Below are positions 1,802-20,994 of a stretch of 20,994 nucleotides of DNA, piece by piece. The position numbers and the translations under genes were made by a program. The DNA is from a virus. The DNA lies in IMG/VR virus record IMGVR_UViG_3300013103_000074, positions 1 to 20,994 of that record; one strand, written 5' to 3'. The notes beneath the pieces were generated by a model that worked only from the letters and a program-made list of their open reading frames with translations, had not been told where the DNA came from and searched no databases. Position 1 is the first letter of the stretch; each line of letters begins with the position of its first letter.

Positions 1802-2097
1802 TATGAACCTCCTTTTAGTTGTTGTCGGAGCACTCTTATTTGGTGCTCTATTTGCATTATAAATCTTTTGTCAGTTGGTGTAAGAGGAATACGAAGTTTT
1901 TGTGCATTCATCCTAATGTCAAATATCTGTCTCTCAAGGGCAAATATTTGATCATTAAGGATCTTCTGGTCAATCCTCATAGCTACCAAATCCACATATG
2001 CTTTATCAGCTTTTCTAAGATCATAGGCATAAAGACCACCTATGATAGTAAAGAAAGCAACGATTATTCCTATCCATACAGACACCTTGTTTGTCAT
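1801..2097 (-). CDS. Single-pass membrane protein with coiled-coil tail, lysis region
   Basis: The 98-residue product has one N-terminal membrane segment (about 6-25, VSVWIGIIVAFFTIIGGLYAY). A charged, mostly helical region rich in heptad-like Leu/Ile follows (about 30-92, including MRIDQKILNDQIFALERQIF). This shape resembles inner-membrane spanins and other small lysis accessory proteins. There is no obvious outer-membrane spanin lipoprotein in the window, though one could be embedded elsewhere. It overlaps the GTA-type holin gene by ATGA. Membrane topology is clear; spanin identity is a guess from shape and position. Confidence 0.65.
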   Translation of the reverse strand: MTNKVSVWIGIIVAFFTIIGGLYAYDLRKADKAYVDLVAMRIDQKILNDQIFALERQIFDIRMNAQKLRIPLTPTDKRFIMQIEHQIRVLRQQLKGGS

Positions 2098-2510
2098 CGT
2101 TTAAACTCCTTCATTATTTTCTCTCCAGATCGTCCAACTACATATCCACCAAGACCAATCTTGATCAAGGCCCACAGATCAGGTGGTGTTTCAAGCAACG
2201 GTGCTGCTTCCCACAGTAGGCTTAGATACGGATAGAGAACATAATTGTTAAAGATGATAAAACCAAATAGTATCATCAACCCGGGTCTCCAGTTTCTTTG
2301 AAGTGGTGTGCCCTGTGCTTCAGCAACAATAATATCACGTTGAGCCTTTAGCTGTTCCGTGAACTTGGTCATGTCTATCTTTTGCCATTCTATAAGCAGG
2401 TTGGCTTTGATCTTATTAGCTTCATCTTTATCCTCAACAGCTTTATCGATGAGGCCTATACCAGCTTTGATAACATCACCTACAATTGGTATTGCTTCCC
2501 ATAAGGCCAT
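2094..2510 (-). CDS. GTA-type holin of three membrane helices (GTA_holin_3TM-like)
   Basis: The 138-residue product matches the family pattern known as 'holin of 3TMs, for gene-transfer release'. It has a short N-terminal hydrophobic segment (IPIVGDVIKAGIGLI), then an amphipathic region ending QRDIIVAEAQGTPLQRNWRP at about 58-77. A membrane helix follows (LMILFGFIIFNNYVLYPYL), then the signature IKIGLGGYVVGRSGEKIMK at 117-135. Holins of this family form inner-membrane lesions that let the endolysin out. The endolysin candidate lies three genes upstream. TAATG overlap with the previous gene. Family assignment is confident from the NWRP and GGYVVGRSGEK motifs. Confidence 0.85.
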   Translation of the reverse strand: MALWEAIPIVGDVIKAGIGLIDKAVEDKDEANKIKANLLIEWQKIDMTKFTEQLKAQRDIIVAEAQGTPLQRNWRPGLMILFGFIIFNNYVLYPYLSLLWEAAPLLETPPDLWALIKIGLGGYVVGRSGEKIMKEFKR

Positions 2511-2821
2511 TACTTCCTCCTTATCTTGAAAAACTTATGAATTACTAATGGAACCATAACCAACACAGTCAAATAAACAGGAGGTACATATTTTGTCCTT
2601 ACTAATAAGAACATAAACTGATCATAGTCAAGGTACATAAATAATCGTGCAACCCACAAGTAACTGTAATTAGAAGCAAGGGCTAAGAACAGAACAGCCA
2701 TATAAGCATCTTCCACATGACCATTCATACCTTTCCTAATGCCCCAGGAATACAAAATAGCAGCTACAAGAAATAATACAGATGCAATAAGTGTTCCCCA
2801 AAAAACAATATCTGTTTTCAT
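2510..2821 (-). CDS. Small membrane protein with about three hydrophobic helices, lysis region
   Basis: The 103-residue product has hydrophobic stretches at about 6-27 (VFWGTLIASVLFLVAAILYS), 38-62 (AYMAVLFLALASNYSYLW) and 78-97 (VPPVYLTVLVMVPLVIHKF). It has a basic C-terminus (KIRRK). The size and topology fit a class of phage holins or antiholins, and it sits directly beside the GTA-type holin and the endolysin candidate. No family motif is recognised. ATGA and TAATG overlaps join it to its neighbours. It may be a second holin, an antiholin, or a membrane protein of other use. Confidence 0.7.
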   Translation of the reverse strand: MKTDIVFWGTLIASVLFLVAAILYSWGIRKGMNGHVEDAYMAVLFLALASNYSYLWVARLFMYLDYDQFMFLLVRTKYVPPVYLTVLVMVPLVIHKFFKIRRK

Positions 2822-3261
2822 TCGTAAGGTTTCCCGTTATTCTTAACGTTGTTGTGCATTAGCTTTAAAAGAGCACTTCTAAAATGTACATGCTCTGCAT
2901 TAAATATAACTAACTTTTCATTGATCGATTTTATTTCAGACTCAACCACAATAAGCCCTTTCTCAACTTGATGATTCGATTCAAGTATCCGATTCATTGT
3001 CTCATAATTTGCTGTTGTTGCAGCCTTTGAGGTATAGTAATTAATCCCGCTTACTATGGTAATCAAACTCATTATAATACCTATGCCCCATTTAAAGTTC
3101 CCGTAAGACACCCTGCTATCTAATGCTTTCCACATATCTCCTTGCTCCGCCGTAGTAGTATCGCTATGTTTCTCCAAAGTAGAAATCGCTTTAGAGTGTT
3201 CCCTATGAGATACACAATCATGGCAATCACGCCGTCTTTCTTCCGTTGATTTATCATTCAT
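2818..3261 (-). CDS. Membrane protein with N-terminal Cys/His cluster, one helix and coiled coil
   Basis: The 147-residue product begins with a charged cytosolic-type segment carrying C13, C16, H19 and H22 (CHDCVSHREH), a possible small metal site. A single membrane helix follows at about 57-76 (FKWGIGIIMSLITIVSGINYY). Residues about 85-147 are helical and coiled-coil-like. Many phages place a similar one-helix protein, sometimes called XhlA-like or holin-associated, beside the endolysin. It overlaps the endolysin stop by ATGA. The name is tentative; topology and the Cys/His cluster are visible directly. Confidence 0.65.
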   Translation of the reverse strand: MNDKSTEERRRDCHDCVSHREHSKAISTLEKHSDTTTAEQGDMWKALDSRVSYGNFKWGIGIIMSLITIVSGINYYTSKAATTANYETMNRILESNHQVEKGLIVVESEIKSINEKLVIFNAEHVHFRSALLKLMHNNVKNNGKPYE

Positions 3262-3737
3262 GGTTTCACCCTTTTGATTCCTTTGTTTAACTTATCCCAA
3301 TTCCTATAATCAAGATGTAGCCAATCGACATCAACCTCTATACATTTGATGTACTTAAAATCCTCATGAAAAGGATCATTCATTATATCTTTTCTAATCT
3401 CTTTCACAGAAACACCACTCACTGGGACACTATCTTGGGCTCGGCCAAATCTGTGTTGAGATATATTTCCAAAAGTTGAATTAGGGTTCTTTACATAAGG
3501 AGAATGTTCATCTCTATAACCTCTCCATTGGTGAACACCGTACATATCCATCATGCTATTACTAAACCAAGTGTTCATTATGAAAGGAGTATCATATCGT
3601 TCCCTTAATCTAACAGAAGTTATCAAAGCCCTGTAATCAATTACGGACCAAAGCAGATCGCCATAAATTGGAAACATTGCCTTGAAATACGAAGGTGGAA
3701 ACCATTCTTGCAATTTGAAGTGTTTGGGTTTGTACAT
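3258..3737 (-). CDS. Peptidase M15-like endolysin (D-Ala-D-Ala carboxypeptidase / L,D-endopeptidase type)
   Basis: The 159-residue product carries the M15 zinc-peptidase pattern. H95 and D102 lie in SQHRFGRAQD, and H141 lies in DWLHLDYRNW with E134 seven residues before it. These match the known H-x6-D ... E-x6-H arrangement in which two His and one Asp bind zinc and the Glu acts as base. Such enzymes cut peptide stems of peptidoglycan. There is no signal peptide, so release through the nearby holin is expected. The N-terminal region (FKLQEWFPP) resembles the helix found at the start of M15_3-type phage proteins. It starts TAATG on the stop of the fibre gene. A virion-associated role cannot be excluded. 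Confidence 0.8.
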   Translation of the reverse strand: MYKPKHFKLQEWFPPSYFKAMFPIYGDLLWSVIDYRALITSVRLRERYDTPFIMNTWFSNSMMDMYGVHQWRGYRDEHSPYVKNPNSTFGNISQHRFGRAQDSVPVSGVSVKEIRKDIMNDPFHEDFKYIKCIEVDVDWLHLDYRNWDKLNKGIKRVKP

Positions 3738-5011
3738 TATGAAGATTCTCCTTGTATATAAACATCCAAAGAACCTGACGAACTTTGACTCATTACCAAG
3801 TCTGTTGAAAAAGGTGGATCACTTGTATTATATCCAGCGTAGCCTGATGAAAGTCTTCCAGGTATTAATCCTTCTGTATTAGTAGAATGAGTATAGAAAA
3901 TAAGCCCGGTGGATGCAGTCACAGCAAATGGTGTGAAGTCTATTCCTGATGTCAAAGTGATCCACCCAGTTGATAAGCCGCCCACATCAATAACTTCAGT
4001 ATAGCTATCAAAAGTAAAAGTTGTCCCTGAGAATGTCCCTTTCCAAATTCTAAGCCTGCCACCTGCTGTATTGTTGTATATTTGTATTTGATGGACAGTA
4101 CCAGCAGCAGAAAACAATTCAGGAGTACTGGATCCTGAATAAGCTGTGTAAATATACCCACTTGGTGTTTGACTGTTATTGCTTCCATTACCTGATGCAT
4201 AATCCATATCTAATACGGGCGGGCTTGTCGTTGTAGTGGTGCTGAAAGTACTTGTCGATGTCGATGTGGAACTCAGCGTTGAACTACTTGATGTGGTCGA
4301 ACTAAAAGTTGATGTGGTACTGAATGTACTTGTCGAACTCATTGTACTTGAAGTTGTACTGAACGTACTTGTGGTACTGAACGTACTGGTTGAACTCATT
4401 GTACTTGATGTTGTACTAAAAGTACTGGTTGAACTCATTGTACTGGTAGAACTCGTACTGGTAGAACTCGTACTAAACGTACTTGTAGTACTAAACGTAC
4501 TTGTAGTACTTGCTGTACTTGAGGTCGTTGTGCTTGAACTGGTTGTTGTAGTAGACGAAGTGGAATAGCTCGAACTATCACGAACAGATATATGGAGATC
4601 AATGGTATCTGTATCAGTAGCATATCCAATCGGCTGATAAAACCAATTGGGTTTAGTTTGAGTAAAAGTACCTGCAACACTATCAGATAACCAAACAACT
4701 TTTCTTGGTGTCAAGGACCAACTGGCTACAGTAATAATCCCTTTCCTACGAACTCTAATTTCATCATCTAAAATACCCCCTTCAGTAGCAACACCTAAAC
4801 AAGGTTGCTGTGTCCCATCTGCTAATGCTTTATACCACTTAGAATCACTATCGATATAAAGACCATCTCCTTCAACAACAGTCTCACCAAGAGTTGCTAA
4901 CATGACAGATTGTATAATATCATCCAGGAATTCAATGTTTTCTTTCAGTTTACGGTTCCACCCTGTGGTTCCATAATCAACATGTATTAACTCGTAGATA
5001 GAAGTTGGCAT
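3737..5011 (-). CDS. Fibre or decoration protein with long Thr/Ser linker and extra C-terminal beta domain
   Basis: The 424-residue product has three parts. Residues 1-146 are clearly paralogous to the upstream 169-residue protein: both share DY-x3-GWN, LATLGE-like, YKALAD, PCLG, VWLSD and TQTKP blocks. Residues 147-263 are almost all Ser and Thr with occasional Phe and Met, in repeats such as STFSTTSTFSTTSSTMSS. Residues 264-424 form a beta-rich domain, with GRLRIWKGTFSGTTFTFDSY in the middle, that looks like a carbohydrate-binding sandwich but is not assigned. It starts two bases after the previous stop without a Shine-Dalgarno (TAATTATG), so coupled reinitiation is likely. Position after the tail tip suggests a surface fibre or adhesin. 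The first domain resembles small phage decoration proteins. Confidence 0.75.
   Translation of the reverse strand: MPTSIYELIHVDYGTTGWNRKLKENIEFLDDIIQSVMLATLGETVVEGDGLYIDSDSKWYKALADGTQQPCLGVATEGGILDDEIRVRRKGIITVASWSLTPRKVVWLSDSVAGTFTQTKPNWFYQPIGYATDTDTIDLHISVRDSSSYSTSSTTTTSSSTTTSSTASTTSTFSTTSTFSTSSTSTSSTSTMSSTSTFSTTSSTMSSTSTFSTTSTFSTTSSTMSSTSTFSTTSTFSSTTSSSSTLSSTSTSTSTFSTTTTTSPPVLDMDYASGNGSNNSQTPSGYIYTAYSGSSTPELFSAAGTVHQIQIYNNTAGGRLRIWKGTFSGTTFTFDSYTEVIDVGGLSTGWITLTSGIDFTPFAVTASTGLIFYTHSTNTEGLIPGRLSSGYAGYNTSDPPFSTDLVMSQSSSGSLDVYIQGESS
4223..4573 (-). repeat. Thr/Ser linker repeat tract inside the second fibre gene
   Basis: These bases encode residues about 147-263 of the fibre protein, nearly all Ser/Thr. 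The + strand word GAACTCATTGTACT recurs at 4335, 4392 and 4431. The spacings of 57 and 39 bases are multiples of three, so the array can lengthen or shorten in frame. Smaller units built on GTACT and GAACTCGTACTGGTA lie between. The tract also carries ACTGGTTGTTGTAGT at 4538-4552, which is repeated in two other genes. Confidence 0.85.
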
Positions 5012-5013
5012 AA

Positions 5014-5523
5014 TTATACCGTTGTGGTTGTTGTAGTAGTTGTTGTTGAACTGGTTGTTGTAGTTGATGTCGTTGTTCCATACGAAGCAATATTACCTAT
5101 TTGTATTCTTATATCTAAAGTATCTGGTCCTATAGCAATTCCTATCAATTGCTCTGTACTTGGTTTAGTTTGAGTCAAAGCCCCTCGGGTAATATCTGAT
5201 AACCAAACACCAGTTCCTGAAGTAAAAGACCACCCTGTGACTTGCATAACCCCGTCTCTTTGCATTCGGATAACTTCTCCAGAATTACCGTCTTCAATTG
5301 CAAGTCCTAAACAAGGCATCCTCCTATTGTCAGCTAAAGCTTTATAGTAAAAACCATCAGTTTGAAGGTAAAGGGCTTCTCCTTCATCTACATCCTCTCC
5401 TAAAGTGACTAATGCCCAAGTGTCTACCACTTCATCAAGAACTTCCATTGCAGATTTATATATGGCGTTCCACCCTGCTGCGGTGTAGTCAGCCGTTTCC
5501 ATATCGTATTTTGGTGTAGCCAT
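5014..5523 (-). CDS. Fibre or decoration protein with terminal Thr/Ser tail
   Basis: The 169-residue product consists of one domain (residues 1-149) and a 20-residue Thr/Ser tail. The domain has the pattern LVTLGEDVDEGEALYLQ, FYYKALADN, MPCLGLAIED, GVWLSD and ALTQTKPS. It resembles small beta-rich phage head or tail decoration modules that read 'G-x-A-L-Y ... KA-x-A-D ... G-x-A'. The next gene is a paralogue with an added C-terminal domain, so a tandem duplication is probable. It starts three bases after the stop of the hub C-half gene behind AAAGGGG. The exact place on the particle is not determined by sequence alone. Structural role likely, specific name uncertain. Confidence 0.75.
   Translation of the reverse strand: MATPKYDMETADYTAAGWNAIYKSAMEVLDEVVDTWALVTLGEDVDEGEALYLQTDGFYYKALADNRRMPCLGLAIEDGNSGEVIRMQRDGVMQVTGWSFTSGTGVWLSDITRGALTQTKPSTEQLIGIAIGPDTLDIRIQIGNIASYGTTTSTTTTSSTTTTTTTTTV
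5017..5076 (-). repeat. Thr/Ser tail tract of the first fibre gene
   Basis: Twenty codons, almost all Thr or Ser, end the gene. The + strand word ACTGGTTGTTGTAGT lies at 5050-5064, identical to words in the second fibre gene and the head closure gene. The mRNA ends ACAACGGTATAATTATG, spanning the stop and the next start. Confidence 0.8.
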
Positions 5524-5526
5524 ATT

Positions 5527-6939
5527 TTACCCCTTTGTTACAAGAATGATTCTGGAAATAGACTCATATTCAATTGAACCATCTGTTCTATAATTTGTCA
5601 CAGCAAAAGTCAGAAATGGAGACAGGCTCCCATTATCAGCCGTGTTCATGGTAGAATCATAAGTCCAAGTATAGGTTGTTAAACCACTGGTTGTTCTTAC
5701 TAAAGTTTGTGTTCCAGTTTTTGTGGTATGTGCATAAACCCGTACCCGAAAGAAACCTTCATGTGTAGGAGAAGCATCTGTAACTGAAGTTGGAATACCC
5801 ATCCCAGCCCCAATTCCACGGTATCTTGGTGCCCATGTAAGAACATTATCCCCCGTATATTTTGAATACAAATTACTATCATTTGATCTAAAATCATGGA
5901 CAGGGTAAGGTTTTCTTGCAAACCCAGTAAATGTGTAAGTCACAGGATTATCGACAAGGGCTATATCCAAAGTAGCTCCAGAAGAAATAGGCAAGAACTT
6001 ATATAAACGAGTGGCTCCTGTAGGTTCATCACCAAAAGTAATAAGTTGTCGGAAGTTGTCACCTACAAAGAAGAAAGTAGTACCTGGGGGATGGTATGTT
6101 TTCTCAGTACCAGCAAAACCTCTGTGAACTCCTTCTAATTTATAAGTTGTATCACTAACAAGGGATATTGTCTGAAAAGTTATCCATTCTGTTTCTCCCA
6201 ATATTGCCATATTGAGTGTGCCAAACAATTCAGACATAGTTATATTACCAATCACACCTTCATCACCTGACGTAAAATAAACAGTGAGACCTACCCTTTT
6301 ATCTATATCTGGGGTTACATCATAAGAGTTCAGTAACACACCAAAAGGGTTGAAAGCTGTAACCGTGTCTATTTTACTGTAAGAGGTACCACTATCTATG
6401 CTTTGATAAACCTCATACCCTACTTCTCCTCCAGTTCTCATTGCAGCGAGAGGTAGCATTTTTACATAGTCTCCACCAGCTATAAGGTACGGTGGTTCAA
6501 CAACAGTTAAGGCAGTTAAATCTCCCAGAGAATCAGTTGGTGTGTCCCATTGAGAAGTAGGTGGTGTTATCTCAGAGGTAGCTATCGTACTGGAAATATA
6601 ATCCACATCCTCAAGGGCAACTACATCAATTTCCTCAGACCCTAACTCCTTCTCGGAAATCTTGACAACCCGACAGATCATATTAGTGATGCCCCAATTG
6701 GTATAACTGAAATTGAACAAATCTCCTGCCTGCAACTTAAACAACTTTCTATTCGTTACAAATTGAAATTGTGCGAGAGGATAAGAAGCTGTCTTTAACA
6801 ACCTATCTGATTTCCAAAAAGCAGTCTCTGGTCGAGTGAACAAATTCAAATTAACACTCTTAGACGCAGTATATCCCTGGATCCTTTTGTTTGCAGGATC
6901 ATAAACAATTAAATTAGCTTCGATTAAATCTACTGGCAT
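5527..6939 (-). CDS. Tail-tip hub protein, C-terminal half (split gpJ-like megatron)
   Basis: The 470-residue product looks like the second half of a J-like tail-tip protein rather than a complete protein. Residues 8-115 carry a block typical of the middle of such proteins: VYDPANKRIQGY, SDRLLKTASYPLAQFQF, TNRKLFKLQAGDLFNFSY, VALEDVDY. Residues 262-295 carry YKLEGVHRGFAGTEK and the following HPPGT, the 'RG-x-x-GT-x ... H-x-x-G-T' motif near the C-terminal part of GTA/J-type tip proteins. The gene starts TAATG on the stop of the gene encoding the N-half, with a GGAGG seven bases upstream that overlaps the last Gly codons of that gene. I infer that the two products assemble as one hub. Tail protein identity is sure; the split is a strong inference from architecture. 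Confidence 0.8.
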   Translation of the reverse strand: MPVDLIEANLIVYDPANKRIQGYTASKSVNLNLFTRPETAFWKSDRLLKTASYPLAQFQFVTNRKLFKLQAGDLFNFSYTNWGITNMICRVVKISEKELGSEEIDVVALEDVDYISSTIATSEITPPTSQWDTPTDSLGDLTALTVVEPPYLIAGGDYVKMLPLAAMRTGGEVGYEVYQSIDSGTSYSKIDTVTAFNPFGVLLNSYDVTPDIDKRVGLTVYFTSGDEGVIGNITMSELFGTLNMAILGETEWITFQTISLVSDTTYKLEGVHRGFAGTEKTYHPPGTTFFFVGDNFRQLITFGDEPTGATRLYKFLPISSGATLDIALVDNPVTYTFTGFARKPYPVHDFRSNDSNLYSKYTGDNVLTWAPRYRGIGAGMGIPTSVTDASPTHEGFFRVRVYAHTTKTGTQTLVRTTSGLTTYTWTYDSTMNTADNGSLSPFLTFAVTNYRTDGSIEYESISRIILVTKG

Positions 6940-9920
6940 TAGGTTCCTCCACCATCATCAATATCCCACCCTTTACCTATTAAAGTGGCACGTGCTGCGG
7001 CTGCTGCTCCACCTGAGGTATATACTGAGTTGTTCATTTCAAGGGTAACACCAGATTGAACACTTTGAGGCGCCCATCCAATAAGAAGGGCATCATAATT
7101 TACAGTTGTCATGTTATTAGATTCAAAGAAGTTGTTCGCAGAGGTGACATTTGATACATCCCAACCACTTATATCTTGTTCAAAAGCGGAAGCTCCTTGG
7201 AACATACCACCAATGCTTTGCATATTCGTAGTTGTCCAACCACCTATATCTTGATTAAAAGCCTGATTCCAATAGAACATGTAGACAAAGGCTGCTATAT
7301 TTGAAACATCCCAAGTAGTTATGCTCGCATGGTTGAAGCCGCTTTGCCTAAACATACTATGTAGACTGGTCAAACTAGGATGCCAAGTCCAACCAGCTAC
7401 ACTTCCATTAAAGTCACGGGCTTCACGAAACATTTGATAGAAATTAAGACTTGACGAAACATCCCATTGATCCAAATCCTGGTTGAATGATTGGGCACCA
7501 CGGAACATCTCCTCCATACTTTCTACTTTTGAAACATCCCAACCACCAATATCTTGGTTAAATTGATTGGCTGAGTAAAACATACGATACATATTAGTAC
7601 AGCTTGAAGTAACCCAACTTGAACAATCTCCATTGAAACTACCAGCTTGTGCGAACATGGAATTCATATTAGTAACATTTGAAACATCCCAACTATTCAA
7701 ACTGTATGCACCTGGGTTTGCACCATTAAACATAGCCTGCATTAGTATAGCACTTGAGACATCCCAACTACTACAGTTCGGAGACCAAGGAGTAACAACG
7801 GATGTGTTATAAAACATAAAAGAAAAGTCTTCTACGTTTCCTGTTTCCCATCCACTTACATCTTGATCAAAACGGTAGGTCTGATAGAACATAGATGCCA
7901 TATTAGTAACACTTGAAACATCCCAACCACTTAAATCTTGATTAAAATCATAAGCTTGCATAAACATACCAGCCATATTAGTGACATTTGAAACATCCCA
8001 ACCACTTATATCCGAATCAAAAACCTCTGCTCCATAAAACATTTGAAACATAGATGTAATCCGACTGGTATCCCAATAACCAATATTAGGAACACCTGTC
8101 AAAGCATCGCAACCTAAGAACATTCCTGCAAACGAGGTTGTCTTACCAAGGTCAGGGGTATCGGTGGCAGTTATTTGTAGGTTCTCACATTTGTAAAAGG
8201 TGTAATTAAAGGAGCCTAAACTCAAACAACCCCACTGCGTGACATCATCTATCAGATTTCTATCTGGATGCTCTCCTGGGCCATAGAAACTGAATCCATC
8301 TATTATTCCTTTAATAGTTATATTGTAAGATCCTACAGCACCATAAACATGTGTAGCCGCACCATCATTATAAGCTGTGATAGTGCTTTCTGCTGTATTA
8401 TCCCCCCAATTTACAATAAAATTGTAAGTTCCCCCATCTTTCAAAGGTAAAGCAAACGTCAAATTATAAGAAAGTGTGGTAATCGAAAATTGAAAAGGAG
8501 GATACTCAATATAACCTGACACTTCATAATGCTTGGCTTTTATTTCATTATGAGTTTCAAGCCATGTGGGCCTTGTTAAGGTTGGCTCAACCAACAAATT
8601 ACCTTCGTTTATAGTAGGTAAATTTGAGGTATCTTCTGTCCCTCGCAACAACTTGAAATGAAACTTAGGATTACCACTTGCGTCTGTTTTGTAAGTCATG
8701 GTAGCATCGATATGTTGTAAAATGCTTTCTACATAACTAAAAACCTTAGTACCGCCCTCCATCAAAAACGAAACTCCCATATCTTCTATATATAAATCAT
8801 CTGCCAAAGTATTGAGAGAAGGGACATCAATAAAATCAGTGGACATTTTACCTGGAACTGTCAACATATAGTATAAAGCATGTGCTGGATTATAATCATC
8901 AAACACCTGAATATTGGTATTTGTAAATGTACTGAATGTTGGGTACTTTGCCACTATAAAACTCATTGTAGGAACACTGGTTCCACCTAAATAACAATGC
9001 TGGAAAGATGCCCAACACAAGCCCCTCATATTTGCCGTTGGTCTACCACTACCACTACCTGTGTCTACTTGGTCATCAGTACCAAAATAGAAGATCACAT
9101 CCCCCATTTGGTCCCCTTCAGTACTTGTCTCCTTAAACGATTCAACATAGGTTAACCAAATGAATAAATCCTTTTTGCCGTATTCATCATTAAATGAGCA
9201 ATTATCAGGCCATGTGTCAAAGGTAATTAAAGTGTATTCCTCAAGGGTAGGTCCATTCCAAAAGGATAAAAACTCAATGTCAGTCATGGTTGAGCGATCC
9301 ACCCCGCCCCTACACATAGCCTCTGCTGTAACAATACTACGCGGTGATATAGTATAATTCTTAAAAGCCCACCCTTTTATTCGAACTTTACCATCTTGTT
9401 CCCTCCACCCCTTCGAAGAATTGTTCTTAGAATCATATTCAAATCTTACGGTATCTATCTTTTCATTGGTTCCTGTAATACCATCCCCCATAGACAACAC
9501 AACCTTACCTGAGGGGTTGTCAGATAAGCTTTCATATCCCTGCCATACAGTTTCACCATTTCTATAAACACCAAGAATAGCATCCACGGGTCCTTTACAA
9601 ATACCTAACCACCAGGTAAGCTGGTAGGTATATTCATCATCATCCTTATCTCTGTCTTTATCTCCATACCATAATATGTTCCCACCTATTTTAGAAATAC
9701 CAAGCAAATCAGTTACTTCCATACCTTTGCTTGCTTCATTTAAAGACCAAGCAGGAGGTGCCCCAGTATCATTATCTGGGTCAAGGGGGTCAATCATAGA
9801 GCCAATGCCATACCCAATAGTGAATCCTACATAGGCTGTGTACAAATTAAAACCAGGACCGCCCATAAATCCACCAATAACAAAACCAACAACCCCGCCT
9901 AATATTGATCCACCACTCAT
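6939..9920 (-). CDS. Tail-tip hub protein, N-terminal half, fused to PKD and BspA-like repeat arm
   Basis: The 993-residue product has four regions. Residues 1-45 are Gly-rich and hydrophobic (SILGGVVGFVIGGFMGGPGF) and end in IDPLDP, as at the start of many J-like tip proteins. Residues about 65-465 are the tip body, with LLGISKIGGNILWYGDKD and, at the end, TWLETHNEIKAKHYEV. Residues about 475-545 resemble a PKD domain (NFIVNWGDNTAES, then THVYGAVGSYNITI). Residues 616-940 are about 13 BspA-like (DUF285) repeats, and 941-989 form their usual cap (YDALLIGWAP ... LIGKGWDIDDGG). J-type proteins normally continue from the tip body into the block now found in the next gene. The repeat arm is probably a receptor-binding module acquired from a bacterial surface protein. 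It overlaps the peptidase gene by ATGA. Confidence 0.85.
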   Translation of the reverse strand: MSGGSILGGVVGFVIGGFMGGPGFNLYTAYVGFTIGYGIGSMIDPLDPDNDTGAPPAWSLNEASKGMEVTDLLGISKIGGNILWYGDKDRDKDDDEYTYQLTWWLGICKGPVDAILGVYRNGETVWQGYESLSDNPSGKVVLSMGDGITGTNEKIDTVRFEYDSKNNSSKGWREQDGKVRIKGWAFKNYTISPRSIVTAEAMCRGGVDRSTMTDIEFLSFWNGPTLEEYTLITFDTWPDNCSFNDEYGKKDLFIWLTYVESFKETSTEGDQMGDVIFYFGTDDQVDTGSGSGRPTANMRGLCWASFQHCYLGGTSVPTMSFIVAKYPTFSTFTNTNIQVFDDYNPAHALYYMLTVPGKMSTDFIDVPSLNTLADDLYIEDMGVSFLMEGGTKVFSYVESILQHIDATMTYKTDASGNPKFHFKLLRGTEDTSNLPTINEGNLLVEPTLTRPTWLETHNEIKAKHYEVSGYIEYPPFQFSITTLSYNLTFALPLKDGGTYNFIVNWGDNTAESTITAYNDGAATHVYGAVGSYNITIKGIIDGFSFYGPGEHPDRNLIDDVTQWGCLSLGSFNYTFYKCENLQITATDTPDLGKTTSFAGMFLGCDALTGVPNIGYWDTSRITSMFQMFYGAEVFDSDISGWDVSNVTNMAGMFMQAYDFNQDLSGWDVSSVTNMASMFYQTYRFDQDVSGWETGNVEDFSFMFYNTSVVTPWSPNCSSWDVSSAILMQAMFNGANPGAYSLNSWDVSNVTNMNSMFAQAGSFNGDCSSWVTSSCTNMYRMFYSANQFNQDIGGWDVSKVESMEEMFRGAQSFNQDLDQWDVSSSLNFYQMFREARDFNGSVAGWTWHPSLTSLHSMFRQSGFNHASITTWDVSNIAAFVYMFYWNQAFNQDIGGWTTTNMQSIGGMFQGASAFEQDISGWDVSNVTSANNFFESNNMTTVNYDALLIGWAPQSVQSGVTLEMNNSVYTSGGAAAAARATLIGKGWDIDDGGGT
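7101..8075 (-). repeat. BspA-like (DUF285) repeat array in the tail-tip gene
   Basis: About 13 units averaging 25 residues follow the pattern W-D-V-S-N-V-T-N-M-x2-M-F-x6-F-N-Q-D-I-S-G. Examples start at residues 641, 666, 744, 794, 869 and 920. Some units are divergent (for example at 691 and 844), so the array is old enough to have drifted. At DNA level the + strand word ACATCCCAACCACTTA recurs near the unit junctions. The fold is a leucine-rich-repeat-like solenoid used by bacteria for adhesion. Confidence 0.85.
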
Positions 9921-10363
9921 GATCTATCCTTTAATCTAAAGACAAACCTTTTTCGCTTTTGCCACTTTCTATTTAACCAGGGCATATCAGTAACCCCCAT
10001 TCCATACAAAGAATGATGCACTGTTCCCTTTAGATATATTCCTGTATGTGCAATTGATTTACCAACTTTATACATTATAATATCACCATCTTTAGGGTTG
10101 TTGAAATCCCCATTCTCAACACCAAGATTTATGGTACCATCAACTAATACATCATCTTTGGTATGTAGGAAATACCAATCTGAATGGGCTGGAATCAAAA
10201 TTCTATTCCTCGCTCCACTATCTACCAACACCCCTGCCACATAATTTGAACAATCAGCTCCTCGGTGCTTAATACGGGCATTAAGCATCCAGGGGGTTCC
10301 TTGCCAACCTTTAATAGCTTGGGACAGTTTATCTATATTTTCTGGTTTATCGAAATAGAACAT
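9917..10363 (-). CDS. NlpC/P60 family tail-tip peptidase (gpK-like)
   Basis: From the ATG at 10363 the product has 148 residues. The catalytic cysteine is C38 in RGADCSNYV and the histidine is H106 in KSIAHTGIYL; H117 (TVHHSLYG) may be the third residue. PKDGDIIMY before the His is the usual NlpC/P60 strand. These enzymes cut peptidoglycan peptides during DNA entry. The place between the gpL-like and gpJ-like genes matches lambda gpK and GTA synteny. A GTG nine bases upstream (10372) is in frame, but I prefer the ATG because it forms TAATG with the previous stop and sits at proper distance from AAGGGTG. The lambda gpK JAMM domain is absent. Confidence 0.88.
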   Translation of the reverse strand: MFYFDKPENIDKLSQAIKGWQGTPWMLNARIKHRGADCSNYVAGVLVDSGARNRILIPAHSDWYFLHTKDDVLVDGTINLGVENGDFNNPKDGDIIMYKVGKSIAHTGIYLKGTVHHSLYGMGVTDMPWLNRKWQKRKRFVFRLKDRS

Positions 10364-11193
10364 TACTGCCACACCCTTACTCTTGTTGGGTTTATCTCTG
10401 GTATATACGGAAACCCCAAAAAGTTGTCTTCGTTACTAAACTTATCAGTACAGGTAGAAAGATCACCATCACAACCTGGGTACAAATATACTGTTCCAGA
10501 AGGAGATGTATTGAATTTATACCGAACACTAATTGAATCTCCAATATTACTGACAATCATTCTATAATCTACTGTGGCCCCTGAGCCCACTCTTATAAAA
10601 CCTAAAGTGAAATAACTATCAGCCTCAGTCAACGACACAAAATCAATGGTCAGTCCATCCGAGCTTACAGAACTTATCGATTTAGCTATCCCATAATCAT
10701 CTTCTAAAAGACCACAGCCTTCATCAAATAGATTATGATTGCATTGATTTTGGTATCTAAGGATACAAGCAGGTCTGTTCAGATAAACTTCAAATCCAAC
10801 TACCGTTGCTTCTGCTTTGGTCCCAGACAATGTGATGGTGCTTATTTGTCCAACGAAAATGACATCAACTTCATATGGGGTCTGATCTGAAAACAACTTC
10901 AAAACTTGAACCCAGGTTTGCTGAGTAGGACTTTGTGCTATAAACTGGGAAACAGCTGGATTTAAATAATCAGTAGTTACCACCATCTTACTTATTTCCA
11001 ATTCTGCATTATACTCAATAGGACCACGAGTTACAGTAGCTGGCTCATAAGTGTTGCCGCCATAACTAATAGCTATATCAGAACTGCAAAAGCGTTGATC
11101 AAGGGTTAGATCATCATAGAAATGGAAAAGCTCAATGGGTTTGCGTATCTTGGCTTCTTCTTTACCTGCATATTCATCTGATGGAGTTTTCAT
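10363..11193 (-). CDS. Tail-tip hub protein with four conserved cysteines (phage BR0599 / DUF2163 type, gpL-like)
   Basis: The 276-residue product matches the BR0599/DUF2163 family. It has an N-terminal half with IELFHFYDDLTLDQRFCSSD and GGNTYEPATVTRGPIEY, and a C-terminal part with CNHNLFDEGCG and YPGCDGDLSTCTDKFSN followed by NFLGFPYIPEINP. C151, C160, C241 and C248 are well placed to bind an iron-sulfur cluster, as shown for lambda gpL and reported for the gene transfer agent hub. The protein should connect the distal tail ring to the tip. It starts two bases after the previous stop, with no Shine-Dalgarno because the upstream bases encode a Thr tail. The following peptidase and tip genes confirm the order. 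Family call is firm; the cluster is inferred. Confidence 0.88.
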   Translation of the reverse strand: MKTPSDEYAGKEEAKIRKPIELFHFYDDLTLDQRFCSSDIAISYGGNTYEPATVTRGPIEYNAELEISKMVVTTDYLNPAVSQFIAQSPTQQTWVQVLKLFSDQTPYEVDVIFVGQISTITLSGTKAEATVVGFEVYLNRPACILRYQNQCNHNLFDEGCGLLEDDYGIAKSISSVSSDGLTIDFVSLTEADSYFTLGFIRVGSGATVDYRMIVSNIGDSISVRYKFNTSPSGTVYLYPGCDGDLSTCTDKFSNEDNFLGFPYIPEINPTRVRVWQ

Positions 11194-11195
11194 AA

Positions 11196-11834
11196 TTATG
11201 CCGTTGTCGTTGTAGTGGAAGTATATTCGTTTGGTAACTCAACAAAATACAACTTTGTAGATGCTACCTCTGGAGAAGAATACATCCATTCAATTGTTTC
11301 TAAATCTAATCTTCCCATATACAAAAAGCTGATGAACTTTACCTGAGATTTAGGTATATTCCTCCCTAAAGCACTATCAATATTAATTTTGGTTGCTGTG
11401 TACCCTGTTAATCTACGAGCAAACCATATGCTATCATTTACATAAATAAACAAGTATCTACCAGTACCTCTCCCTGGTGGATAAAAAACACTGTAATTTT
11501 CAGTTGTCAGAACATCAATGGTAGTATCTGTAGAAGCAATATCCCCATTTATCTTGAAATCAGCGATCCAACTTGGGAACCATATATTCTCAATTCTTCC
11601 TTTGAGTGAATCAAACAGGCCATTAACCACTGAAATATCTTCTTTACCAACAAAATTGTATATGAAATTTGTACTGTAGTTTGGGAAGTTAGACAAAGGT
11701 TCGGAGTAAGTGTATCCAAAAGTAGTACCAATTATATCAGTCCTGTTCCTACTTAGTTTACCTGGGGATTCTTCCCAAATAGGACCAACATGAAAAACAG
11801 GTTTGTATCTATAGTCAGTAAAAGAAAGGGTCAT
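11196..11834 (-). CDS. Distal-tail-like minor tail protein with short Thr tail
   Basis: The 212-residue product is predicted beta-rich and carries LFDSLKGRIENIWFPSWIADF at about 73-93, a pattern seen in distal tail and DUF2460-like proteins ('F-x-x-G-R-x-x-x-F-W-x-P-S-W'). It ends ASTKLYFVELPNEYTS followed by TTTTTA. The upstream gene has a comparable layout, so the two may be paralogues forming adjacent rings at the tail end. Position between the tape measure and the hub fits a distal tail role. The short Thr tail matches longer ones on other virion proteins. ATGA overlap with the previous gene. Structural role is likely; exact ring position is not known. Confidence 0.75.
   Translation of the reverse strand: MTLSFTDYRYKPVFHVGPIWEESPGKLSRNRTDIIGTTFGYTYSEPLSNFPNYSTNFIYNFVGKEDISVVNGLFDSLKGRIENIWFPSWIADFKINGDIASTDTTIDVLTTENYSVFYPPGRGTGRYLFIYVNDSIWFARRLTGYTATKINIDSALGRNIPKSQVKFISFLYMGRLDLETIEWMYSSPEVASTKLYFVELPNEYTSTTTTTA
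11199..11222 (-). repeat. Short Thr tail of the distal-tail-like gene
   Basis: Eight codons read TSTTTTTA before the stop. The mRNA end ACAACGGCATAATTATG differs at one base from the end of the first fibre gene (ACAACGGTATAATTATG), including the stop and the next start. Confidence 0.7.
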
Positions 11835-16678: not shown

Positions 16679-17338
16679 TTATGACGTGGTTGTAGTAGTA
16701 GAGGTACTTGTGCTACCTGTACCATCATCCCATAGTACTCTTCCGAGCGGTTGGGCATCCCAAATAGTATGCCCATTTGTGGTTCCTCCTGCTTCATTAA
16801 TCCAGGAAGTTGCACCATCAGCCCTCTTTGACTCAAGGGTAATGGAAACAGCCGCGGGTTCCTCCGAAGCAAAGTCAAGCTCAAGACTTGCAACTACCTG
16901 GCACCTCGGAAACACAATAGTCATGGTATTTACACCATCTGGGTAAGTATAAATAGCTTCCATTCTGACAGACAACGGGGCAGCAATGGAACCCAACCCA
17001 ATATTACCTAAGTGCTCATCGGCATAACCACCTGCAGTAGGATCAAGTCCTCTTGCAAGGGCAAGGTTGTAAGGGGTTATTTCCTTGAATCCACACTCAA
17101 GGGAACATCCTTCTCTCAGTGGAAACACAGCATCCTCCAACATCGGGAAACCAGATTCCAGTTTGAAAACTTCTACGGTAGACATAAACTTGGTATCAGC
17201 CAAAGCACCAATTGATGCAGCCAAACCTAATATCGGTCGAATCTGACCAATATAAGTCTCACATGTACCAATTCGAATTTGAGCCAAACCAAGGGCTACA
17301 GTTGAACTATCTTTTGTAATAGGACCTGTTCTCGCCAT
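16679..17338 (-). CDS. Major tail tube protein with Thr/Ser tail
   Basis: The 219-residue product forms the tail tube. It begins MARTGPITKDSSTVALGLAQ and includes ASIGALADTKFMSTVEVFKLESGFP and REGCSLECGFKEITPYNLALARGLDP (residues about 41-100), the layout seen in tube proteins of long-tailed phages. A later beta-rich part (IVFPRCQVVASLELDFASEE) follows. The last 13 residues, TGSTSTSTTTTTS, form a Thr/Ser tail. It sits behind one of the strongest Shine-Dalgarno sites in the window and just before the chaperone pair, both expected for a tube gene. The C-terminus is expected on the outside of the tube by analogy with lambda gpV. Role confident, tail function unknown. Confidence 0.87.
   Translation of the reverse strand: MARTGPITKDSSTVALGLAQIRIGTCETYIGQIRPILGLAASIGALADTKFMSTVEVFKLESGFPMLEDAVFPLREGCSLECGFKEITPYNLALARGLDPTAGGYADEHLGNIGLGSIAAPLSVRMEAIYTYPDGVNTMTIVFPRCQVVASLELDFASEEPAAVSITLESKRADGATSWINEAGGTTNGHTIWDAQPLGRVLWDDGTGSTSTSTTTTTS
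16682..16720 (-). repeat. Thr/Ser tail tract of the tail tube gene
   Basis: Thirteen codons encode TGSTSTSTTTTTS. Unlike the fibre and distal-tail ends, the following gene has its own GGAG site overlapping the stop. Confidence 0.75.
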
Positions 17339-17340
17339 AG

Positions 17341-17354
17341 TATCACCTCCTTTA
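17341..17354 (-). promoter_or_regulatory. Extended Shine-Dalgarno of the tail tube gene
   Basis: The mRNA reads TAAAGGAGGTGATA, with AGGAGG eight bases before the ATG at 17338. AAAGGAGGTGAT matches the complement of the 16S rRNA 3' end over 12 consecutive bases. This fits the high copy number needed for a tube protein. Confidence 0.8.
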
Positions 17355-17642
17355 TTAAGTTACTGTTGACGCCGGGGTTTTCTGTCGATTGGATTTAGGA
17401 AAGTAATTGAACACTTGCCAGTGGCCACATTCTATCCTAAAACAGCGGATCTTCAAAGATCCATGAATATATATAAACACAGAATTCCAGTCCTGTGTTG
17501 TATTCGTATTTGGGTTTCTCTTTCTACCACGCCCATATTTGAACTTCCATAAACCATTCTGAAGTCTTTCAACCAGGGGCTGTCCGCACTTTTCACATTT
17601 GTACAGAACACCACGTGGTTCCTTTTTTGCATCATTCAACAT
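17355..17642 (-). CDS. Small zinc-ribbon protein (Com-like pattern)
   Basis: The 95-residue basic product has C16 and C19 in YKCEKCGQPL, then C67 and C72 in IRCFRIECGHW. This is a two-knuckle zinc ribbon resembling the small phage zinc proteins related to Mu Com, a translational activator that binds mRNA. The stretch between is basic (FKYGRGRKRN). It starts TAATG on the stop of the tail terminator and ends just before the tail tube Shine-Dalgarno. Its place inside the tail gene block is unusual for a regulator, so a structural or RNA-binding role is open. Zinc-site visible; function inferred. Confidence 0.65.
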   Translation of the reverse strand: MLNDAKKEPRGVLYKCEKCGQPLVERLQNGLWKFKYGRGRKRNPNTNTTQDWNSVFIYIHGSLKIRCFRIECGHWQVFNYFPKSNRQKTPASTVT

Positions 17643-18112
17643 TATATTATGCTCGCAAACCTTGATATGATAGTTAATATTTTGTATTTGGTTTCATCTT
17701 CAGCTAAAAACTGGGCACTTTCAATAATCTCCTGTACAACAATCCCACCTATCTTCTCCCAGGGAAGAGTTGAATGACTACGGTAAAAGGGAACTCTCAT
17801 AATACCATCTCCTGTATTATTTGATAAGTACCCCATCACAAGATCACCTAATTGAGCAATACGAAAACCCTCATTGTCCTGTCTCGTACAGCAGTATATC
17901 TCTACAAAACCCGTAGATAAGTGTCCCCTGCTTAACTCTCCAAAACGAACATTCACCCATCTTGTTGTCTCTTTATGCCCTGTTAAGTAAGGAGTAGCCA
18001 TTGTTCGATCAAAGGTAACTTGTACACCTGAAATGGTATATATGTTATCTACTAAGAACTTCTTCCAACTATCACGAAAGTTGGACTCCCGGGCTGTCGG
18101 GTCCAAGGTCAT
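17642..18112 (-). CDS. Tail terminator protein (gpU-like)
   Basis: The 156-residue product has TTRWVNVRFGELSRGHLSTG followed by VEIYCCTRQDNEGF at about 49-83, then RIAQLGDLVMGYL. This 'R-W-V-x-V-x-F-G ... V-x-I-x-C-x-T-R-x-D' layout is typical of siphophage tail terminators, which cap the tail tube and join it to the head. It starts behind GAGGAGGTC, a strong site, and overlaps the end of the small unknown gene by 41 bases. The overlap is probably real because the ribosome site is so strong. Position between gp10-like and tube genes agrees. Confidence 0.8.
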   Translation of the reverse strand: MTLDPTARESNFRDSWKKFLVDNIYTISGVQVTFDRTMATPYLTGHKETTRWVNVRFGELSRGHLSTGFVEIYCCTRQDNEGFRIAQLGDLVMGYLSNNTGDGIMRVPFYRSHSTLPWEKIGGIVVQEIIESAQFLAEDETKYKILTIISRFASII

Positions 18113-18314
18113 TTTTGACCTCCTCAGTTAATTTATCTAAAATCGGAAAGAACTCATCTTGGACAAACAATAAGGTCTTTTTGAATTCGGGTTCTTCTGC
18201 ACCATCAAATGTTACCTTTGCTCTTGATAAGAAATCAAGCAGCATGTTTATTTCCGTTAATGATACTTCAAAAGTGACATGGATATCTTTTGCCTGGACA
18301 TCTAAAATCTTCAT
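18072..18314 (-). CDS. Small acidic phage protein of unknown function
   Basis: The 80-residue product begins MKILDVQAKDIHVTFEVSLT and continues as an acidic, mainly helical protein with LLDFLSRAKVTFDGAEEPE. I do not recognise it. Two starts are close: an ATG at 18320 and one at 18314. I choose 18314 because it forms ATGA with the previous stop and has a better spacing from AGAGGT. It lies between the HK97 gp10-like gene and the tail terminator, where siphophages often carry a short gene of no known role. It overlaps the terminator gene by 41 bases. Confidence 0.6.
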   Translation of the reverse strand: MKILDVQAKDIHVTFEVSLTEINMLLDFLSRAKVTFDGAEEPEFKKTLLFVQDEFFPILDKLTEEVKNDLGPDSPGVQLS

Positions 18315-18859
18315 CGCCATTTACCTCTTATCCTTAATAGAGAGCGCATACCTTGTTTTGGAAGATATGCTTTCTTGTACTGCAAAGCAGTTGGTCTGAA
18401 CAATGGTCTGGCAGGTACTTTGCTATTACCATATTCATTGACACGGGCATATAAAGCTATTTGAGTAGGAGCACCCGAACCTGACCAATTTTTACCACCT
18501 GAGTCATAAATACCACCGGGAACTCCCGCCATCCAAGAAACCCCACCTTTTCTCCCACTGGGGTCCATGCTTGTAAGAGCGGCTGACTTTCTAAAGAATC
18601 TGATATTATTAGCAAGGTCTCCTCTTAATCTCCAATATATCAAAGGGTAGCCCATCTTAATTTTCCATTTACGATAGGCCTTACTATAAGATTGATATAG
18701 AAAAGACTGCTTGTTTATATTTCCAATAAGAAGGTTCCGTGCTTCAATGGCACAACTGCGGGGAAGGTTATTTTGCTGGCGGAATATCTCTTTTACGGTA
18801 CGAGATATTGCCATCCTAACCTTTCTGAGGTCACTACCATCAATTACAGCATAAATCAT
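18311..18859 (-). CDS. HK97 gp10-like head-tail joining / tail completion protein
   Basis: The 182-residue basic product ends with the family motif VNEYGNSKVPARPLFRPT at about 139-156, then a helix. HK97 gp10-like proteins share 'E-[FY]-G-x3-x-P-A-R-P-F' near the C-terminus. The protein has a Gly/Ser-rich stretch before it (YDSGGKNWSGSGAP). Place between head closure and tail terminator is as in HK97. It starts ATGA on the stop of the head closure gene with no Shine-Dalgarno, because the bases before it encode a Thr tail. Coupled translation is likely. Confidence 0.82.
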   Translation of the reverse strand: MIYAVIDGSDLRKVRMAISRTVKEIFRQQNNLPRSCAIEARNLLIGNINKQSFLYQSYSKAYRKWKIKMGYPLIYWRLRGDLANNIRFFRKSAALTSMDPSGRKGGVSWMAGVPGGIYDSGGKNWSGSGAPTQIALYARVNEYGNSKVPARPLFRPTALQYKKAYLPKQGMRSLLRIRGKWR

Positions 18860-19611
18860 ATCGTTGTAGTTGTAGTGGTAGTTGATGAACTTGTGGAGGT
18901 CGAGTTGGTTGAACTGGTTGAAGCCGTTGTACTACTGGTTGTCGTTGTACTGGTTGTTGTAGTAGTACTGGTTGTTGTAGTAGTAGAGAATGAAGCCCTG
19001 TTATCTTCTCCTAACTCAAGGACATCCATTCCATCATAACGTCTAGGTTTGACAGTTTCTACACGATAATAAACAGATTCAGAAAGGACGATTCTATCAA
19101 GGGGCTGTACTCCCCAAGAAGTGGGAACATACATCTCATGCATTTCCAAGCCCAATAAAGCTAATTCCTCATCTGTTTCAAGAGAGTGCCCATATAAAGG
19201 TGCTGTTATTAATGCTCTGGCACTTTCTTTGATATAACTCCACGTGGTAGCCCTATGATAATTTTGAGGATCATAATTAGGGTTCGTAGGCCGCCTAATA
19301 TCACAAACTACATTGGTTTTATAAAGAACAGCTTGGTATCTCCATATTTCATTCTCAAGCATATCCGGAGACTTATTCATCACAAAATGATAAGATCCGG
19401 GAACTACTAATAAAATGGTATCACCAACAACTGCTACAGAATCATAAGATAACCAACATTCAGTAAAAAACTCACGGATAAAAGGCTTTGTAACCTGAGC
19501 GTTACTGGCATACAAGGTGTTCTCTCCAGTAACGTTTCCTGCATCTCGTATTATCGTATAGGCCTGCCCTACTTCGGCAAGAACTTCTTTTATATCAAGA
19601 CCTATTGACAT
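18856..19611 (-). CDS. Head closure / neck protein with long Thr/Ser tail
   Basis: The 251-residue product has a body of about 208 residues ending with PLDRIVLSESVYYRVETVKP and YDGMDVLELGE. The pattern 'D-R-I ... Y-Y-R-V' with a basic turn is typical of head closure proteins. The last 43 residues are almost all Thr and Ser with no matching domain, starting SFSTTTTTSTTTTT. It lies between connector and gp10-like genes, the neck position of siphophages. The tail is the longest terminal tail of the window and may cover the neck surface. Structural call fair; closure identity inferred from position and motif. Confidence 0.72.
   Translation of the reverse strand: MSIGLDIKEVLAEVGQAYTIIRDAGNVTGENTLYASNAQVTKPFIREFFTECWLSYDSVAVVGDTILLVVPGSYHFVMNKSPDMLENEIWRYQAVLYKTNVVCDIRRPTNPNYDPQNYHRATTWSYIKESARALITAPLYGHSLETDEELALLGLEMHEMYVPTSWGVQPLDRIVLSESVYYRVETVKPRRYDGMDVLELGEDNRASFSTTTTTSTTTTTSTTTTSSTTASTSSTNSTSTSSSTTTTTTTI
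18859..18987 (-). repeat. Thr/Ser tail tract of the head closure gene
   Basis: The + strand carries ACTGGTTGTTGTAGTAGT twice in tandem at 18949-18966 and 18967-18984. The 15-base core ACTGGTTGTTGTAGT is also at 5050-5064 and 4538-4552 in the two fibre genes. A looser unit precedes the tandem pair. Confidence 0.85.
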
Positions 19612-20066
19612 TATGTATTCTCATTTGGTCCGAAATCAACCTTGTTTGCCTCCAGGTAAGTCTCATCCCTACCCGTTAATGAACCATACGAAAAGCCCGC
19701 ATCGACTTTGGTTCCGAATAAATGGAAAGAATCTACACCAGCAAACATATCAGGTCTTGCATCTTGAATATCTACAAAAGCCTGATCCATTTGCTCTAAA
19801 ACTGAACCATAGTGCTTAAATTTGTGCTCCAAGTGTATTTGCTCAACTTGGAACTTGGCAGCACTTTCTGTCCAAAGATAATATATCAACCAGCGTTTAG
19901 ATCGATTCAAATACCATTGAATCTGAAAAGAATCGGTAACAGGTAAAGCCCATCCCGTATCTCTTGAAGCGGCAGCTTGGGCATTCTTGTAATCAGCACT
20001 CACAAGATAAGATGTCAGTCCTTTTACTTCCTGCTTCAAGAGAGCCGTACAAGCTGATGTATTCAT
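19611..20066 (-). CDS. Head-tail connector-like protein
   Basis: The 151-residue product is helical, with a central region YLNRSKRWLIYYLWTESAAK and KFKHYGSVLEQMDQAFVD (about 52-100). Its size, helical content and place after the capsid gene fit the connector proteins that line the portal opening (HK97 gp6 or SPP1 gp15 type). The C-terminal part (SLTGRDETYLEANKVDFG) is less regular. It starts ATGA on the stop of the previous small gene. No Thr tail. Family is not confirmed by a signature motif. Confidence 0.65.
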   Translation of the reverse strand: MNTSACTALLKQEVKGLTSYLVSADYKNAQAAASRDTGWALPVTDSFQIQWYLNRSKRWLIYYLWTESAAKFQVEQIHLEHKFKHYGSVLEQMDQAFVDIQDARPDMFAGVDSFHLFGTKVDAGFSYGSLTGRDETYLEANKVDFGPNENT

Positions 20067-20353
20067 AACTTCCGCCTCCTCAAAACTACTGGCTGTGATT
20101 TAATTTCAACATTGCTATTGGTAATGATGTTGCTAACTTTAGTGGGGTTCGAATTATCAACAACTATTTTGGGAATATCCCCTATCGAAATACCTTCACT
20201 TCTTTCTATGACTTCGACGGTACCTCTATTGAGGCGAACTTCTTCAAGAATATCGGAAGGGAAGGGACCATCCTTACGATCAAGAATAGTCCCCTCCTCC
20301 CATATATTCTTACCTGCTTTCAAAGTCTTCTTTATTTCTATTTTCTCAATCAT
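20063..20353 (-). CDS. Small head-region protein, unknown
   Basis: The 96-residue product begins MIEKIEIKKTLKAGKNIWEE and has a GTILDRKDGPFPSDILEEVR stretch at about 21-40, then a C-terminal Lys/Arg-rich end. Short proteins of this type often follow the capsid gene in siphophages. I do not assign a function. It starts 33 bases after the capsid stop behind GGGAG. The small gap between them holds no recognisable terminator. Confidence 0.6.
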   Translation of the reverse strand: MIEKIEIKKTLKAGKNIWEEGTILDRKDGPFPSDILEEVRLNRGTVEVIERSEGISIGDIPKIVVDNSNPTKVSNIITNSNVEIKSQPVVLRRRKL

Positions 20354-20386
20354 GGATTTTCACTCCCATTATTGACACAACCGCTA

Positions 20387-20994
20387 TTAAGCAGTAGTTG
20401 TGGTAGTAGTCGAAGACGAAGTTGTGGTTGTGGACGTTGCGGATGCTGCTGCTGTAGTAGCAACCTCGATAGAATAAATAGCATCACGATGATACAGAAT
20501 GGGCAGGCCCTTATCCCGTACTCGGATAAAGATACCTTCCGGGTCCCATTCTTCATGCTTGTCTGTTTGCAGACCATACTGACGGCCTAAACCAAACGGA
20601 GCTTGTTTGTACTCTGCGATTGCTTCACCGTCTATAGAAGTAGACATGAAAACAATCTTGTTATCCGGCACAAAGTATTTCCGCATGGCAACAGAATCGA
20701 GACCAGCTTTGTATGAATTGTCCGTCGGGTATTCAATCTGTAACTGGTTGGTAAATGTATCAACCGAGAGAATAACACGATCCTCATAGGCACCTGTGGT
20801 ATTGTTATGAATGCGAACAGTCTCAAAAGCTGTGAAATCAGAAGCATCCTGAACAGAAACCCAGGTACTCGAACCACCGGAAAGAGTACTGGTTATCCAG
20901 CTTTTAATTTCATACATCTCATCATAAACAGCTATATTGGGAATGTCGAGCAAACGAGCAATAACATTGGCATTGGCTTCAACGAAATCATTTC
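20387..20994 (-). CDS. Major capsid protein, C-terminal part (phage capsid E-type), with Thr/Ser tail; 5' end outside window
   Basis: The frame is open to the window edge, so the TTG at 20953 is not the start: upstream codons read NDFVEANANVIARLLDIPN in frame. The visible 201 residues match the C-terminal part of lambda gpE-type capsid proteins: N-x-I-A-R-L-L-D-I-P, VYDEMYEIKSWI, then YFVPDNKIVFMSTS, then WDPEGIFIRVRDKGLPILYH with a D-A-I-Y-S-I-E-V ending. Lambda-type capsids share 'V-P ... D-P ... L-P-x-L'. The last 24 residues are a Thr/Ser/Ala tail. Capsids are present in hundreds of copies, so the tail would dominate the head surface if exposed. Fold family fairly confident. Confidence 0.82.
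   Translation of the reverse strand, partial: NDFVEANANVIARLLDIPNIAVYDEMYEIKSWITSTLSGGSSTWVSVQDASDFTAFETVRIHNNTTGAYEDRVILSVDTFTNQLQIEYPTDNSYKAGLDSVAMRKYFVPDNKIVFMSTSIDGEAIAEYKQAPFGLGRQYGLQTDKHEEWDPEGIFIRVRDKGLPILYHRDAIYSIEVATTAAASATSTTTTSSSTTTTTTA
20390..20461 (-). repeat. Thr/Ser tail tract of the major capsid gene
   Basis: About 24 codons at the 3' end encode mostly Thr, Ser and Ala. The sequence is more mixed in codons than the other tails and lacks the ACTGGTTGTTGTAGT word, so it may have evolved apart or drifted. Confidence 0.75.

Follow-up and report, generated by a model that had tools for sequence, protein, structure and literature searches.

The modular construction of phage fibres, with repeat linkers between the domains, is already known. 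The antireceptors of S. thermophilus phages are described as having collagen-like repeats between their domains (Duplessis and Moineau 2001, cited in PMC5601072). One of the two fibre proteins described here (fibre B), as well as many relatives, is like these adhesins in having a low-complexity repeat between its separate domains. However, the tract in this phage is Ser/Thr-rich and not a Gly-X-Y collagen-like one, and capsid and tail-tube proteins also bear tracts of the same type as tags at their C-termini. Another related protein is gp82, the neck fibre of Anabaena phage A-1(L) (PDB 8KEG), in which the residues matched by our fibre proteins form a flexible C-terminal domain (PMC10966104). 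The available portion of that source mentions no Thr/Ser tract for gp82, and gp82 is located at the neck whereas the fibre genes described here are placed after the tail-tip genes. Moreover, glycosylated capsids have been reported in the mycobacteriophages Che8 and Rita (PMC11256854, citing Freeman 2023). As in these phages, the capsid and tail proteins here offer candidate Ser/Thr acceptors, and some relatives have phage-encoded glycosyltransferases. Nothing relevant on phage structural proteins rich in Thr, and no description of long mucin-like phage stalks, was found in the literature searched. New in the present case are the Ser/Thr chemistry, the use of the tract as a tag across the virion and the nucleotide-level swaps at the tract edge.

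The window, that is the whole stretch of DNA that was analysed, is an IMG/VR record of 20,994 bases. It holds, on the minus strand, the part of a siphophage-like genome that runs from the head to the tail genes. In it two adjoining fibre genes encode fibre A (5014-5523, minus strand, 169 aa) and fibre B (3737-5011, minus strand, 424 aa). The first 149 and 150 residues of the two proteins align with 44% identity, one gap and an E value of 4e-37, which confirms the paralogy over some 149 residues noticed in the preliminary description. In fibre A the N-terminal domain (residues 1-149, 5077-5523) is followed by a tract of about 20 Thr/Ser residues (residues 150-169, 5017-5076) that closes the protein with ...SYGTTTSTTTTSSTTTTTTTTTV*. 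In fibre B the aligned domain (residues 1-146, 4574-5011) leads into a tract of about 117 residues built of STFSTTSTFST-type units (approximately residues 147-263, 4223-4573), and beyond it lie 161 residues (264-424, 3740-4222) without counterpart in fibre A. The tract is thus an end in one paralogue and a hinge in the other, as had been described. The same pair is found in a sister contig of 35,777 bases (IMGVR_UViG_3300014914_000015, here G001), which is 99.9% identical over the whole length of the window with no gaps, so the arrangement is not an accident of a single assembly.

A profile of the common N-terminal domain matched residues 131-234 of gp82 (8KEG chain a) with an E value of 2.6e-8, and this supports the naming of A and B as fibre proteins. 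The match spans only positions 38-140 of the query and falls on the C-terminal part of gp82, the neck-attachment N-terminal domain of gp82 remaining unmatched. Phage_cement_2 (PF09956) gave a weak hit in fibre A, at 20.5 bits against a curated cut-off of 24, and the AlphaFold2 model of the domain had a pLDDT of 32. Further relatives of the N-terminal domain in viral contigs were limited to G001 and a distant match in L069. Of the fibre family only this phage and its near-identical sister are known; no relative with a third C-terminal state was found in the viral contigs.

The C-terminal domain of fibre B behaves as a mobile module, having relatives of 52-56% identity in two other viral contigs (L010 and L012). 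In L012 a Ser/Ala/Pro tract flanks it on either side and the borders of the domain coincide with the tract ends; in L010 it is N-terminal in its protein and has no tract. The fibre of L012 (4345-7171) has repeated SPSASIS-type linkers between its domains, a different chemistry around the same C-terminal domain. Searches against Pfam, PHROG and the PDB sequences gave no matches to the domain, and none was found in bacterial genomes or in cultured phages. Its earlier designation as a beta domain is weakly backed by an all-beta predicted model with a mean pLDDT of only 48, and a PDB fold search with that model returned nothing below an E value of 0.001.

The fibre tracts are not DNA microsatellites and are maintained as protein, their codons being a mixture in which each of the four Thr codons and the two Ser families occur. 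An exact word of 19 nt, ACTACAACAACCAGTTCAA, is common to both tracts and lies in the first part of the fibre B tract. This length was reached in none of 300 synonymous-codon shuffles, nor in any of 100 in a separate run, and the two tracts therefore probably descend from one tract. Exact internal repeats of 23-70 nt were found in six tracts (100 shuffles each). They exceed the largest shuffle value in five of the six, fibre B being equal to its shuffle maximum, and in two tracts they reach 61 and 70 nt against shuffle maxima of 31 and 28 nt. Repeats of this length beyond the synonymous shuffles show that the tracts lengthen and shorten by DNA duplication followed by drift. Words shared between the tracts of different genes of one phage were mostly within chance. 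For example, the longest word shared by fibre B and the tract of a 960-aa protein was 17 nt (null mean 17.2), and homologous recombination between these two tracts is hence not indicated. The motif PGATTHSTTT recurs with differing codons in the tracts of different genes and phages (L080 of G008, 1967-7074; L072 of G020, 8216-11548; L092, 39-2813; L089, 9368-9661).

The alternation between end and hinge is also found in other tail and fibre proteins, and the distal domain varies between relatives in the families c6, c14 and c16. In the c14 tail protein a tract of 85 residues is the end of the protein in L129; in L140 and L160 an F5/8C domain and a second tract come past it. The genes of these two phages run colinearly at 74.8%, starting at nt 2 and reaching nt 3563 and 3494, respectively, through the first tract and the F5/8C domain and into the second tract, beyond which L140 has kelch repeats and L160 an unrelated domain of 233 residues that looks laminin-G-like from its sequence, with zero Pfam hits. 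The G020 homologue of this tail protein has no tract. The c6 family comprises the phrog_1082-like tail protein of the window (11196-11834, minus strand), which ends in the short tag TSTTTTTA (11199-11222), and proteins of L017, L102 and L117/L150 with longer tracts. The L017 protein, 46% identical to that of the window, has a tract of 79 residues and then 32 residues; L102 has a tract of 124 residues, a domain of 208 residues and a terminal tag; and in L117/L150 a tract of 74 residues stands at the end. Contig G008 resembles the window in having two adjoining fibre paralogues with a common N-terminal domain and different domains past the tracts, one of the two with an extra domain of 217 residues between tracts.

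The closest view of an exchange is given by L117, L144 and L150, which are short contigs of near-identical phages. Between L117/L144 and L150 the left flank is 96.6% identical over 3.1 kb and the right flank 97.6-98.6%, and between the flanks 968 bp in one have given way to 1040 bp in the other. On the left the swap begins directly behind the MSWLT codons, near the start of the gene, where there is no tract; on the right it ends 13 nt before the tract, and from there onward only one mismatch is found in 333 nt, tract included. Both exchanged stretches carry DUF2341-type domains. The constant part past the tract is the C-terminal half of the baseplate hub of the BR0599/phiJL001 Gp84 family. This hub is whole in the window (10363-11193), whereas in L117 and L150 it is apparently split into two overlapping reading frames, the second of which consists of the swapped domain, the tract and the C-terminal half of the hub (L117, 2764-4823; L150, 3412-5543). 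The preceding frame of 104 aa looks like the N-terminal half.

The same domain on one side of a tract and different domains on the other, as anticipated in the preliminary description, are therefore seen in c14, in c6, in the G008 paralogues and in L117/L150. Its proposal that the tract is a joint is borne out in part: the tract is a position of domain gain and loss, in relatives and not at this locus, but the clearest breakpoint, in L117/L150, falls 13 nt outside it. Breakpoints within the tract were likewise predicted, and in c14 the homology does stop in or at the second tract. Exchange on the C-terminal side of the tract was also seen, but both sides of the tract are exchanged and not the C-terminal one alone.

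Terminal tags of the same kind are present in the window on the 219-aa probable major tail protein (16679-17338; tag 16682-16717; family c2), on a 251-aa head or connector protein (18856-19611; tag 18859-18990; family c1) and on the major capsid protein, the gene of which is cut by the window edge (tag 20390-20440; family c0), all on the minus strand. None of the 38 proteins sampled from the major capsid, connector and major tail protein families (17, 12 and 9, some of them near-copies) has a domain after the tag, and the suggestion that any gene with a tag might take up a new domain has accordingly to be abandoned for these families as sampled. A search with the major capsid protein gave 56 loci. 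In the tree of 38 distinct capsid proteins, a branch supported at 100/100 separates the 15 that are tagged from the remaining 23, which are bare. Among the tagged capsid loci sampled with their neighbours (L013-L068; window 16679-20953) the connector of about 225 aa is always tagged and the tail protein of about 215 aa mostly so; at the bare capsid loci no such C-terminal tag was seen on any virion gene. The tag is thus an old acquisition, retained jointly by several virion proteins, and stands for a single evolutionary event rather than many independent ones. Because the tagged proteins fall in a single clade, Fisher's test on tag co-occurrence does not count as independent evidence.

The tracts could instead be primarily O-glycosylation sites that coat the virion, the domain past the fibre B tract being incidental, an explanation that we take seriously but would not favour. 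The joint presence of tags on capsid, connector and tail protein of the tagged clade speaks for it, together with the glycosylated capsids of Che8 and Rita and a gene of the sister contig outside the window (L006, 1-2880 of G001) where a head of 72 residues is followed by at least 888 almost pure Ser/Thr residues in STSTSTFSTT units. This gene runs off the end of the contig. In G008 and G020, GT4-like genes close to those with tracts point in the same direction, but their hits are below the curated cut-off, and GT2-type glycosyltransferase genes are equally common in tag-free relatives, so that the presence of GT2 genes was rejected as a marker of tagged phages. Given the composition of the tracts and the GT4-like neighbours, glycosylation of the tracts is plausible, and it is compatible with a role as joint rather than an argument against it. 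A cluster of glycosyltransferase-like genes in G020 also encodes a methyltransferase-like protein (42369-43283) that contains a Thr/Ser tract internally and has a basic tail. Ordinary tail-fibre mosaicism, to which we give a little less than an even chance, would explain the joins by illegitimate recombination anywhere, the tracts being passive interdomain linkers that neither attract nor specially tolerate exchange. It is favoured by joins at which there is no tract. Besides the left edge of the L117/L150 swap and the fibre B C-terminal domain in L010, these include L069, where the N-terminal domain type stands at the C-terminus of a longer tail protein, and a fusion in the window itself, where no Ser/Thr tract is found at the join. 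The latter is in a 993-aa tail protein (6939-9920) with DUF285 repeats (E value 5e-100) fused to a phage tail domain. It follows from L010, L069 and the DUF285 fusion that the tract is a common and not a necessary join site. Against mosaicism at random positions, the pattern of end versus hinge, or of differing modules, recurs in at least four tail or fibre families of the tract-bearing phages.

Repetitive tracts might also lead to chimeric joins of unrelated genes during assembly. Several contigs do stop inside tracts (G001 and L089), and assemblies may for this reason shorten them. However, such an artefact is very improbable and for the window already largely refuted by the identical arrangement in a second contig; in addition, the L117 form recurs at 99.95% in the independent contig L144, L150 matches both flanks with SNPs of its own and the reading frames continue across all joins. 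Variation of the fibres by a diversity-generating retroelement or a site-specific invertase is hardly to be believed, as the differences are whole domains; neither reverse transcriptase (PF00078) nor serine recombinase (PF00239) was found in any of 15 records, most of them fragments.

We consider it likely that the Thr/Ser tract serves as an unfolded spacer, tolerant of exchange, which separates a domain attached to the virion from an exchangeable module that faces outward. Such modules would be F5/8-type-C, laminin-G-like, kelch or DUF2341 domains or the C-terminal domain of fibre B, and they would be gained, lost and swapped with boundaries at or beside the tract because the protein would still work after any junction that keeps the frame and falls within an unstructured tract or next to it. 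In proteins that lack a module the tract would stay as the end. The exchange may proceed by short-homology or illegitimate recombination followed by selection, presumably for host contact, which would retain new distal modules, and O-glycosylation may turn the tract into a stiff mucin-like stalk. The data bear on where the joins lie and not on a driving role of the tract DNA in recombination. For this clade of tailed phages we tentatively suggest, at somewhat less than an even chance, that a single Thr/Ser language serves both as C-terminal tag on the main virion proteins and, at the tail, as a mucin-like stalk acting as a genome-wide joint, the tail proteins that end in the tag being able to take up exchangeable adhesin domains and the head and tail-tube proteins keeping the bare tag.

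The spacer reading would provide a rule, visible in the sequence, for where the host-contact proteins of these phages change, namely on either side of a Thr/Ser tract, and metagenomes would thus offer many natural swap experiments. As tracts of the same type mark the capsid and tail proteins throughout one clade, they link the chemistry of the virion surface with the evolution of the fibres. Should the tracts prove to be glycosylated, long mucin-like stalks would be a feature of these phages.
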